A stretch of 64,000 bases of DNA, taken from assembly GCA_021769295.1 (NCBI GenBank), contig JAETTD010000009.1:1-64000 (forward strand), read 5' to 3'. Below the pieces are notes generated by a model, which saw nothing but the letters and a program-made list of their open reading frames with translations, ran no database searches and was not told where the DNA came from. The position numbers and the translations under genes were made by a program. Shown here one piece after another: positions 37,880 through 42,617 of this stretch (its first letter is position 1; every line of letters begins with the position of its first letter). The DNA is from Bacillota bacterium (GTDB lineage Bacteria > Bacillota > Clostridia > Peptostreptococcales > Anaerovoracaceae).

Positions 37880-38674
37880 TTATACCAGCATCATTCTGTC
37901 ATTGGCAAATTCTTCACCTGTGGAAATCTCAAATTTCTTGAGCAAATCCGAAACCTTAAGGTTTGATTTTTCTTCTCCGGAAACATCGTATATAATCTTT
38001 CCGTTCATCATCATAATCAAACGGTTTCCGTATTTTATGGCATCTTTCATATTGTGAGTTACCATTATGGCCGTAAGCTTATTTTCTTTTATAAGCTCGT
38101 CTGTCATGGCAAGTACCTTGGCTGCCGTCTTAGGGTCAAGGGCAGCAGTATGCTCATCAAGGAGCAGAAGGTCCGGCTTTTGAATCGTTGCCATAAGCAA
38201 GGTGAGCGCCTGACGCTGTCCGCCTGACAGCAGCGAAACCTTGGTCTGAAGTCTGTCCTCAAGGCCCAGATCAAAAGGCGCAAGCAGCTTCTTGTAAAGC
38301 TCCCTTTCCTCTTTGGTCACTCCCCATTTAAGGCCTCTCTTTTTTCCTCTTCTCATCGCTATAGCCAGATTTTCCTCTATCCACATATCGCCGGCTGTGC
38401 CCTTCATAGGATCTTGGAAAACTCTTCCGATTCGCTTTGCTCTTATGTGTTCGGGCTGGTTTGTTACGTTTTCCCCGCCTATTTTAATCAAACCGCTGTC
38501 AAGAGGAAATGCCCCTGAAATCATATTGAGCATGGTGGATTTGCCTGCGCCGTTTCCGCCTATTACCGTAATAAAGTCGCCGTCCTGAACATTCAGGTTC
38601 ACTCCTTGCAGCGCAACCTTTTCATTGGCAGATCCTCTGTTAAATGTTTTGCATACATCTTTAAGCACCAACAT
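37880..38674 (-). CDS. ABC transporter ATP-binding protein (TrpXYZ-type putative aromatic amino acid system)
   Basis: GGNGAGKST, LSGGQRQAL, LLDEH. Confidence 0.9.
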   Translation of the reverse strand: MLVLKDVCKTFNRGSANEKVALQGVNLNVQDGDFITVIGGNGAGKSTMLNMISGAFPLDSGLIKIGGENVTNQPEHIRAKRIGRVFQDPMKGTAGDMWIEENLAIAMRRGKKRGLKWGVTKEERELYKKLLAPFDLGLEDRLQTKVSLLSGGQRQALTLLMATIQKPDLLLLDEHTAALDPKTAAKVLAMTDELIKENKLTAIMVTHNMKDAIKYGNRLIMMMNGKIIYDVSGEEKSNLKVSDLLKKFEISTGEEFANDRMMLV

Positions 38675-39638
38675 TGGTATCCACCTCCTCATACTTTTTC
38701 ATATTGGCATTGATTCGTTTTTTCTCTGATATATGTTCCCTGACCACAGGTACCGATAATGCCGCTATAACCAGAACGGCTGTCAAAAGTTTCAGATTAT
38801 TCGGATTGAATCCCAAAAGCAGAACCACCGCAATGATTACCCTGTATATTATACTGCCGAAGAAAACCGATGCAATTCTAATCTTAAAGGAACCTTTTGT
38901 GCCGAAGATAACTTCACCTATTATTATAGATGCAAGGCCGATTACGATAGTTCCCGTTCCCATTCCGACATCGCCGTATCTTTGTATCTGGGCTACCAGA
39001 GCTCCGGAAAGAGCAACAAACCCGTTGGCGATTATGAGTCCGACAATCTTCATGCTATCGGTGTTTCCGCCCTGCGCTTTTACCATTGCCTCGTTGATTC
39101 CCGTGGCTCTGATAAGGCATCCCTGTTCCGTGCCGAAAAACCAATACAAACCCATTATTATTACAATAGCCAAAATGAGCCCTATAGATACGTTGGTAAC
39201 TTTTGCGCTGATTCCAAAGAGCGCTGCGATTTTATCCGGTATGGTTTCTACGCTCTGCTCTCCGAACTGAGACATACCTATATTGGATTTACCGCCTAAT
39301 ATCATCAGATTTACGGAATAAAGAGAAAGCATGGTCAAAATTCCCGCTAAAATCGCAGGTATCTTTAACTTGGTATGTAATATTCCCGTGACAAATCCGG
39401 CAACCATTCCGCATAAGATTGCCAGCAAACTTGAAAGCACAGGATTCCACCCTGCCGCAACCGTAGCCGCAACCATGCATCCGCCCAGTGCAAAGGTGCC
39501 GTCTACCGTCATATCTGCTATATCCAGTACCTTAAACGTTATATATACCCCGATTGCCATAATCCCCCAGACTAATCCGAGGGATATGGCATCAGGCAGG
39601 TTTTTCATTATACTTGCAAGAAGTTCCATAATCAACAC
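38661..39638 (-). CDS. ABC transporter permease
   Basis: Multi-TM, between cognate ATPase and SBP genes. Confidence 0.9.
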   Translation of the reverse strand: MLIMELLASIMKNLPDAISLGLVWGIMAIGVYITFKVLDIADMTVDGTFALGGCMVAATVAAGWNPVLSSLLAILCGMVAGFVTGILHTKLKIPAILAGILTMLSLYSVNLMILGGKSNIGMSQFGEQSVETIPDKIAALFGISAKVTNVSIGLILAIVIIMGLYWFFGTEQGCLIRATGINEAMVKAQGGNTDSMKIVGLIIANGFVALSGALVAQIQRYGDVGMGTGTIVIGLASIIIGEVIFGTKGSFKIRIASVFFGSIIYRVIIAVVLLLGFNPNNLKLLTAVLVIAALSVPVVREHISEKKRINANMKKYEEVDTNVGA

Positions 39639-39640
39639 CC

Positions 39641-40618
39641 TTATTGATAAATTGTTGCAGCCTTTAAGATTGCTTCAGGAATGGTGATTCCCAGCTGGTC
39701 TGCGATTGCTGTATTAACTGCGTACTTCAGTGTATCGCCGCCTAAGTATTCGATTGGCATCTTTGAAATATCTTCGCCCTTGAAAATTTTATCTGCCTGA
39801 CGAGCTGTTGCAACGCCTAAGTCATAGTAATCAAGCGCATATGTGATAAGTCCGCCTTTTTCAACCATTCCGGCTTCTCCGCAGATTACAGGAAGTTTTT
39901 CCTGAGTTGCTACCATTGATACGGTATCCATGCCTGCTGCGATAGTGTTATCTGTAGGCGCATAGATTGCGTCAACTTTTCCTGAAAGGGAAGCTACCAT
40001 TTGCTGAATCTCGTTGGATGAGGAAACAGATGCTTCTACTACCTCAAGTCCGTTGGCTGCTGCTGCTTCTTTGGCCAGTTTAAGCTGGATTTCCGAGTTG
40101 GATTCGTTGGAGCAGTAAAGCACTGCAATTTTCTGTGCGTCCGGTAAAATTTCTTTAAGCAGTTTAATCTGATCTGCTACCGGCGTAAGGTCTGATGTTC
40201 CCGAAACGTTGCATCCCGGTTCTTCGTTGGATGCCACAAGACCGGAGCCTGCCGGGTCTGTTACAGCAGATACCAGAATAGGAATATCTGTAGTCTTGCT
40301 TGCTGCCGCCTGAGCTGCCGGGGTTGCAATCGCAAAGATTAAATCCTTATCATCGTTTACCATGGCTTCTGCTATCGAAAGGCAATTTGCCTGCTCGCCG
40401 GAAGCTACCTGATAGTCGATTTCAATGTTTTCACCGTCTACATATCCCAGGTTTTCGAGCTCATCCACAAATCCCTGATAGGATTTGTCCAGTGCATCAT
40501 GCTTAACAAGCTGAATTACACCTATTTTCAATACTTTGTCCTCCGTCTTGGTTCCTCCGCAGGAACAAAGTCCCACAACCATTACTGCTACCAGTAATAA
40601 TGCTACAACTTTTTTCAT
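39641..40618 (-). CDS. ABC transporter substrate-binding lipoprotein
   Basis: Lipobox VGLCSC; KIGVIQLVKHDALDKSYQGFVDELENLGYVDGENIEIDYQ. Confidence 0.9.
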   Translation of the reverse strand: MKKVVALLLVAVMVVGLCSCGGTKTEDKVLKIGVIQLVKHDALDKSYQGFVDELENLGYVDGENIEIDYQVASGEQANCLSIAEAMVNDDKDLIFAIATPAAQAAASKTTDIPILVSAVTDPAGSGLVASNEEPGCNVSGTSDLTPVADQIKLLKEILPDAQKIAVLYCSNESNSEIQLKLAKEAAAANGLEVVEASVSSSNEIQQMVASLSGKVDAIYAPTDNTIAAGMDTVSMVATQEKLPVICGEAGMVEKGGLITYALDYYDLGVATARQADKIFKGEDISKMPIEYLGGDTLKYAVNTAIADQLGITIPEAILKAATIYQ

Positions 40619-40656
40619 TTTTGTCGTCTCCTTTTCATATATTTGTCAGTGAAAAA

Positions 40657-40691
40657 TAAAAAAGTTCATCTGCATAGCCTGCAAATGAACT
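40657..40691 (-). terminator. Attenuator terminator between leader ORF and ABC operon
   Basis: Minus strand AGTTCATTTGCAGGCTATGCAGATGAACTTTTTT. Confidence 0.85.
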
Positions 40692-40738
40692 CGTTCTGAC
40701 TTTATTTTCTTTTGAGTTAATCAATCATGAGCATCAGC

Positions 40739-40849
40739 CTATGCAGAAGTTTTCAGTTTTGGCATCGTAAAGTAAGCAAAGCAAAAGTATGCGCTGCCTG
40801 CAAAATAACCAAAAAATTTTTCAACTGCATTTACTGCTTTTGGCAACAT
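40739..40849 (-). CDS. 36-aa Phe/Tyr-rich leader peptide
   Basis: MLPKAVNAVEKFFGYFAGSAYFCFAYFTMPKLKTSA*; RBS aaaggagag 6-8 nt upstream; absent from the supplied ORF track. Confidence 0.75.
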   Translation of the reverse strand: MLPKAVNAVEKFFGYFAGSAYFCFAYFTMPKLKTSA

Positions 40850-40878
40850 GATTTCTCTCCTTTCAAAAGTATGTTCTA

Positions 40879-40908
40879 ATAATACTACTCTCCGCCTTAT
40901 TATGTCAA
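40879..40908 (-). promoter_or_regulatory. Sigma-A-like promoter of leader/ABC operon
   Basis: TTGACA-N18-TATTAT on minus strand. Confidence 0.75.
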
Positions 40909-41018
40909 GACCTTTTTCTGAATTTTCTGAAAATTTAACGGGTTCCTATATTTCAAAGGGAGTCTCAAAAGTTTTGTGGTTCCCTTCCCTATGCGGCATG
41001 GGCGTTCGTGTGCAGATT

Positions 41019-41282: not shown

Positions 41283-42617
41283 TTATATTTCTATCATCTG
41301 GAATTTCTTTTTACCTTTTTGAATCAGCAGTTTACCGTCTTCAAACATGTCTACGGTTACCTGCATCTTTTTGTCGGTTACTTTGGCTCCGCCGACCGTT
41401 AAACCACCTTGCTCAATGGTTCTGAAACCTTCACTGTTGCTTGGAACAAGACCAAGTTCCTTAATCAAGGTAACAACTCCGGTGCCTTCCCCTTCAAACC
41501 TTGCTCTGTCCATTTTTACGGTAGGAATATTTGCCATGTTTCCGCCGCCTGCAAAAGCAGCTCTCGCACCGTCGAGGGCTTTCTTGGCTTCTTCTTCGCC
41601 GTGAACCAGTTTGGTGACTTCGTAGGCCAGAATCTCTTTTGCCTTATTGATTTCTGAACCTTCGAGGGAAGAAAGCCTGTTTACTTCCTCCATAGGCAGG
41701 AAGGTGAGCATTCTCAGGCACTTGTTTACATCAGCATCGCCTACGTTTCTCCAGTACTGGAAGAACTCGTAAGGGCTTGTCTTTTCAGGGCTGAGCCAAA
41801 GGGCGCCTTTGGCGGTCTTTCCCATTTTCTTTCCTTCGGAATTGGTAAGCAGTGAGAAAGTCATTCCGTAAACTTCTTTACCCGTCTTCTTTCTGGTTAA
41901 ATCCACGCCGCCTATGATGTTTGACCACTGGTCGTTACCGCCGAACTGAATTTTAACATCAAAGTCACGAGCCATTACCATAAAGTCATAACTCTGCATG
42001 AGCATGTAGTTAAGCTCAAACATGGTCAGTCCGCCTTCACGTTCCATTCTCTGTTTAAAGCACTCTGCACGAAGCATGGTGTTTACATTGAACGCAGAGC
42101 CTATCTCCCTTATAAAATCAATATAATTAAGAGGTCTGAGCCAACGTGCATTGTTCACTGTAATGGCTTTTCCCGGCTCAGGTTTCTTATTCTCATGTCC
42201 CGGAACGAAAACGCCTTCGTTGCCGACATACTGCCATTCTTCGTCAAAATCCAAAAACTTGTCGAAAAGTTTTTTAAACTGAGCGCAGTTGTGCTCAATG
42301 GTTTCCACAGTCATAATCTGGCGCATATCGGTTCTTCCCGAAGGGTCGCCGACCATGCCTGTTCCTCCGCCGATTAAAACCACCGGAGTATGGCCGAACT
42401 TCTGCATGTACATCATTATGATTACCTGCATAAAATGTCCCACATGCAGGCAATCTGCCGTAGGGTCAAATCCTATATAAAATTTAACCTTTTCGTTTTG
42501 AAGAAGTTCACGCACTTTTTCTTCGTCTGTAGATTGTTCTATAAATCCTCTTTCCTTCAAAACGTCATACACGTTGTCGAACTTGCTGACGTCATCAGGT
42601 ATAAAATCAAAGTTCAT
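41283..42617 (-). CDS. tyrS: Tyrosyl-tRNA synthetase
   Basis: [23 protein letters not shown] (KMSKS-like). Confidence 0.97.

Follow-up and report, generated by a model that had tools for sequence, protein, structure and literature searches.

The regulation of genes by amino acid supply in Firmicutes is viewed mainly as a matter of T-boxes. In the 64,000-nucleotide stretch of DNA analysed here (the window), a short open reading frame (ORF) rich in phenylalanine and tyrosine codons is located in front of an ABC transporter operon, raising the question of whether the ribosome translating this ORF decides on the transcription of the operon. Judged from sequence comparison and RNA modelling, the locus is very probably a ribosome-mediated transcription attenuator, which would set the level of a tyrosine/phenylalanine ABC importer according to how much charged tRNA-Tyr and tRNA-Phe is available.

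The Leader Region

The leader region consists of the following elements:

40879..40908, minus strand: promoter, TTGACA (40908-40903), 18 nt, TATTAT (40884-40879), 11 of 12 matches
40857..40863, minus strand: Shine-Dalgarno sequence AAAGGAG of the leader ORF, preceding the ATG at 40849
40739..40849, minus strand: leader ORF of 36 codons, of which codons 12-27 contain all 6 Phe and all 3 Tyr
40652..40692, minus strand: intrinsic terminator, 13-bp stem at 40692-40662 (-16.6 kcal/mol), U tract at 40661-40652

The promoter, the ribosome binding site, the 36-codon Phe/Tyr ORF and the terminator in front of an ABC operon, as described in the initial annotation, are all present base for base. TTGACA-18-TATTAT was the best-scoring promoter in a scan of 9 kb, which overall gave no excess of promoters over shuffled sequences. 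The ORF at 40849-40739 encodes MLPKAVNAVEKFFGYFAGSAYFCFAYFTMPKLKTSA (F6, Y3). In the window, 48 ORFs of 20-60 codons follow a Shine-Dalgarno sequence; their mean Phe+Tyr content is 8.9%, and this ORF alone reaches at least 25%. The terminator is positioned between the leader ORF and the first structural gene, with a spacer of 46 nt after the ORF and 43 bases from the end of its stem to the start of the gene for the substrate-binding lipoprotein. Folding of the whole leader gave z = -3.5. In Rfam, no match at the gathering threshold was obtained for the window, including Phe_leader, Trp_leader and the other leader families, and relaxed E-values gave no credible match to leader families for the window or its relatives. 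A T-box, either as a match to RF00230 or as the antiterminator motif GGUGGUACCGCG, was not identified in the window.

Predicted Competing RNA Pairings

Three regions of the transcript are predicted to compete for pairing:

40825..40836, minus strand: region 1 (protector), CAGTAAATGCAG in codons 5-8, pairing with region 2 in the untranslated RNA, in the minimum-energy fold of the naked leader
40735..40747, minus strand: region 2, TCTGCATAG(GCTG), including the end of the ORF with its stop codon; the partner is either region 1 or region 3
40669..40677, minus strand: region 3, CTATGCAGA, terminator loop and top of the 3' arm, the target of region 2

The complementarity between the end of the ORF and the terminator, proposed earlier, proved to be exact over 9 bases, with TCTGCATAG (40747-40739) facing CTATGCAGA (40677-40669). 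In a duplex test, the complementarity between spacer and terminator of the window exceeded that of dinucleotide shuffles (p = 0.005), and the combined pairing test over 19 leaders of the family, several of which are mutually related, gave a Fisher p = 1e-4.

For the switch model, the RNA was folded with the ribosome footprint removed while the 3' end was growing, and the footprint was assumed to extend 12 nt beyond the first base of the codon in the A site. When the ribosome was placed at Tyr15, Tyr21, Tyr26 or Phe27, the TCTGCATAG:CTATGCAGA antiterminator was formed with P = 0.88-0.99, and for stalling in codons 15-27 the terminator remained at P = 0-0.08 until the last 2-3 nt of its stem emerged. 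A ribosome placed at the stop codon covered region 2; no antiterminator was formed and the terminator climbed to P = 0.98, so that the proposed outcome of both ribosome positions was reproduced. In RNA without a ribosome, region 1 was paired with region 2, resulting in P ~0 for the antiterminator and 0.98 for the terminator. The states were separated as strongly in only 0.5% of 400 spacer shuffles. In the model, the antiterminator is thus exclusive with the terminator, exposed by stalling and masked at the stop codon. In the full-length RNA with a stalled ribosome, the equilibrium is still on the side of the terminator (P = 0.73-0.92); the switch therefore depends on folding during transcription, and in known attenuators the decision is likewise made at this stage.

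Under the proposed mechanism, ample tyrosine and phenylalanine would allow the ribosome to reach the stop codon and to cover region 2, so that the terminator would form. When tyrosine or phenylalanine is short, the ribosome would stall in codons 12-27, disrupting region 1 and leaving region 2 free to pair with the emerging terminator loop and upper 3' arm, which would result in read-through into the genes for binding protein, permease and ATPase. Without translation, pairing of region 1 with region 2 would lead to a stop of transcription. The logic of a classic attenuator assigned in the initial annotation holds for the exclusive pairings and has to be amended for the antiterminator: in the window, it is predicted to invade the loop and the 3' arm of the terminator, in contrast to trp and the other classical attenuators, where the 5' arm is invaded.

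Conservation of the Leader in Relatives

Leaders in relatives were found by searching with the binding protein and reading the DNA upstream. The binding protein of another species of the genus (G001) is 87% identical to that of the window, and the G001 leader shares 17 of 36 residues (47-48%), is free of internal stops and shows 7 synonymous changes at conserved codons; in the random-substitution null, 74% of the sequences gain a stop. The identity of the two leaders alone gave p = 0.035 against this null, a modest conservation of the amino acids. Conservation of this kind suggests that the leader ORF is translated. The G001 ortholog was also the only hit with a credible E-value when the leader peptide was used as query; in the third species of the genus (G005), the locus ends at the end of the contig. 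The stop region and terminator of G001 showed the same switch in the model, matched by 0.7% of shuffles, so that leader, terminator and competing pairing all recur in this species, as the initial annotation had asked to be checked.

In a different genus, the leader of locus L133 is MKAITKMMNELYYGYFKAYYYYVGYLFVPSKFQTAL. Here, a 12-bp pairing, CCTTATAGGATA:TATCCTATGAGG, joins the sequence around the stop codon to the loop of the terminator in the same place using other bases, and the locus switches cleanly in the model, with 0.5% of shuffles being as strong. This pairing by different bases is the best indication of selection on the pairing itself. L127 and L134 reached p values of only 0.07-0.1, and no switch was obtained in the model for L080, L074, L076, L096 and L125b. 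Two of these, the VDRCC leaders L076 and L096, failed the duplex test when the ribosome was placed at the last aromatic codon, a position in which it covers their candidate region 2.

These leaders also bear on what the peptide does. The ORF might encode a secreted AgrD-like cyclic signalling peptide with a C/S-FAYF core followed by MP, the terminator merely ending the transcript; CFAYF or SFAYF followed by MP is present in the two orthologs and resembles an AIP core. For such a signal, the peptide was expected to be kept in relatives without the competing pairings. The opposite was found: the peptides diverge except for the Phe/Tyr codons, and L133 keeps the pairing of stop codon and terminator. 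Moreover, a Cys/Ser core is missing from L133, L127, L134 and L080, the leaders precede Tyr/Phe importers in many genera, and no AgrB (PF04647) was identified in the genome of the window (G000) or in G001 (0 of 2 genomes). Since AgrB is absent, and with no conserved Cys/Ser core across relatives, this reading was rejected as extremely improbable.

A TnaC-like nascent-peptide arrest leader, in which the peptide senses free tyrosine or phenylalanine in the ribosome and not charged tRNA, would be consistent with the motif GYFxGxAxFxFAYFxMP common to both orthologs. The relatives, however, are alike in Phe/Tyr richness and not in the positions or the adjacent residues, which makes peptide sensing very unlikely; richness without fixed positions fits the expectation for codon counting by a ribosome-mediated attenuator.

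Substrate of the Transporter

The transporter genes and their neighbour are organized as follows:

39641..40618, minus strand: substrate-binding lipoprotein (PF04392) with the Glu/Tyr pocket of CD0873, a tyrosine-binding protein
38661..39638, minus strand: permease (PF02653)
37880..38692, minus strand: ATPase (PF00005)
41283..42617, minus strand: tyrS, upstream neighbour, without an Rfam T-box

The location of tyrS next to the ABC system had been claimed before and was confirmed; in G001, tyrS is also found near the ortholog, with one CorA-like gene in between. The closest solved homolog of the binding protein is C. difficile CD0873 (PDB 6hni), in which tyrosine is bound via Glu-263 and Tyr-279 keeps tryptophan out; among the homologs of CD0873, phenylalanine-binding proteins contain Ala/Tyr and tryptophan-binding proteins Ala/Gln (PMC6816091). 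Equivalents of both Glu-263 and Tyr-279 are present in the window protein. Among the 19 leader-associated binding proteins of the family, 18 have the Glu/Tyr pocket, and the remaining one has Val/Tyr and follows a leader that contains 13 Phe codons and none for Tyr.

T-box specifiers in relatives were read by a motif after GAA, checked on the Rfam alignment in 3 cases, with a fair number giving no clear reading; UUC or UAC was identified on Glu/Tyr relatives and UGG on Ala/Tyr paralogs. The genome of the window itself contains such a paralog (L024, G000:C31:134130-135098), an Ala/Tyr binding protein with a UGG T-box specifier, so that tryptophan and Tyr/Phe are probably imported by separate systems in this organism, each controlled by its own kind of RNA sensor. 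Pocket and codons are imperfectly matched, since L096 combines a Phe-only leader with a Glu/Tyr pocket and L151 a Glu/Tyr pocket with a UGG-like T-box. Phenylalanine is still allowed as a ligand because Phe T-boxes occur on Glu/Tyr relatives.

Assignment as the tryptophan-binding protein TrpX (NF041285) was tried and rejected, with a score of 339.7 against a cut-off of 390 bits; the specificity site is occupied by Tyr in place of Gln, and the second site by Glu. From the initial assignment to a Trp/Tyr (TrpXYZ-like) class, tyrosine is thus retained on account of the Glu/Tyr pocket, tryptophan is dropped, and the class is amended to Tyr/Phe. The residues of the pocket suggest that the importer of the window transports tyrosine and probably also phenylalanine, tryptophan being unlikely.

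A Probable CodY Layer at the Promoter

A further element was identified upstream of the promoter:

40921..40935, minus strand: predicted CodY box, AATTTTCAGAAAATT, matching the CodY consensus AATTTTCWGAAAATT at 15 of 15 positions

The box, located 12 bp upstream of the -35 element, is the only match with at most 2 mismatches in the 64 kb, and a codY gene is present in the genome. A perfect box was also found upstream of the G001 ortholog and of the leaderless relatives L070-L073, which retain just the box. This raises the alternative that the leader is translated while regulation is exerted by CodY at the promoter, with the terminator as a constitutive damper. Against this stand the leader and competing pairing, which are conserved and better than shuffles, and the lack of the box at most other leaders; regulation by CodY only is thus most unlikely. 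Because most other leaders are without the box, the two layers are separable. Together with attenuation in the leader, CodY probably represses initiation in rich medium. We infer stalling, read-through, substrate and CodY action from the evidence above.

Leaders across the Family

Among 353 genomes of the family, 88 contained a match to the binding protein at E <= 1e-40. Upstream DNA was examined for 26 loci from this search, for 62 places given by coordinates and for 39 loci of named genomes. In total, 19 Phe/Tyr leader ORFs with a terminator before homologous binding proteins were identified in the family, including those of the window and G001. Examples are MLNRINHRANYYYYYGFNN, MKNANLNNLYYAYSYRYGYGYSGL and MRTVSFIDNYYFYFFRKRSVS, as well as MTNSRKYYYYYCYAQVDRCCTSLD with its tandem neighbour MRNCTKFSFSFNFTFFFTQVDRCCTSLG. 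Most of the 19 leaders have no peptide or RNA sequence in common with the window. The same-genus ortholog and these Phe/Tyr-run leaders before homologous transporters lend support to the ribosome-mediated attenuation originally proposed. On a FastTree tree of 149 binding proteins, the presence or absence of a leader requires 8 changes, with at least 5 forced by well-supported branches and each change being a gain or a loss, and the leaders of L085 and L087 adjoin Phe-T-box genes. In other families of the same order, the Phe/Tyr leader was absent from 15 of 15 upstream regions; proteins identical to CD0873 (zero branch length on the tree) belong to one of the families of this order (f4). The evidence leans slightly towards the view that Phe/Tyr-codon attenuators arose repeatedly at one transporter in this family of Clostridia, in exchange with Phe/Tyr T-boxes. 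The outcome would be attenuators with Tyr codons and an antiterminator that invades the terminator loop, and no earlier description of either was found.

Several other upstream arrangements were observed. On contig C13 of genome G032 (L176), tandem binding-protein genes carry one Tyr-run and one Phe-run leader on the same VDRCC scaffold, the control codon apparently having been switched after duplication. At six loci (L146, L152, L153, L159, L167 and L171), the place of a leader or T-box between promoter and gene is taken by a series of GUAG/UAG triplets, which recall binding sites of the TRAP type. Upstream of Glu/Tyr binding proteins at L143, L144, L145, L148, L150, L154 and L155, a palindrome like CTTTAnnnCATAACnGTGnnAAAG was found as a candidate operator, and a similar palindrome is present at the promoter of L076. 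In Marinilactibacillus and Alkalibacterium (L053-L057, L059), short Trp-containing ORFs such as MKSDWDWNCKNR and MLSDWDWKRNN are located about 85-160 nt before the binding-protein gene; the proteins have a Val/Gln pocket, with Gln as in Trp-binding SP1069, and the ORFs are probable Trp-codon leaders in Lactobacillales.

Comparison to Known Systems

Every defining feature of an attenuator that can be checked by sequence and modelling appears to be present in the window. Like the trp, his, pheA and pheST leaders of Proteobacteria, it has a peptide rich in control codons, exclusive pairings of 1:2, 2:3 and the terminator, and masking of region 2 at the stop codon. In contrast to these leaders, the leader of the window combines Phe with Tyr codons, precedes an importer, occurs in Clostridia and matches no Rfam leader family. 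New here would be the amino acids sensed, the lineage and the invasion of loop and 3' arm; otherwise, the element is predicted to work like a classical attenuator. Tyrosine has been listed among the amino acids controlled by T-boxes, and phenylalanine among those controlled by attenuators in other groups (PMC1262725). For Tyr-codon attenuators, no earlier report was found in the open-access literature searched.

Histidine leader peptides of hisZ/hisS* in bacilli were described in 2010 by Naville and Gautheret, who stated that leader-peptide systems had until then not been demonstrated beyond Proteobacteria and Actinobacteria (PMC2965389). These are likewise Firmicutes leader peptides standing in for T-boxes, from which the window differs in amino acid, gene and lineage, and in the occurrence of several leader types in one family. 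The T-box-controlled trpXYZ of S. suis (PMC9382623) and the T-box paralogs share the ABC family and amino-acid-responsive transcription attenuation with the window; there, the sensor is the binding of tRNA, whereas the window is without a T-box. CD0873 of C. difficile (PMC6816091) has both specificity residues, Glu and Tyr, in common with the window protein, whereas C. difficile-type loci have no leader ORF in the upstream DNA examined.

Where T-boxes, leaders that count codons and possibly operators replace one another at a single gene within a family, it becomes possible to ask how one RNA sensor gives way to another with the logic preserved. The control codons help to predict the substrate of the importer, and the pairs of leader and binding protein are natural variants for the question of sensor exchange.
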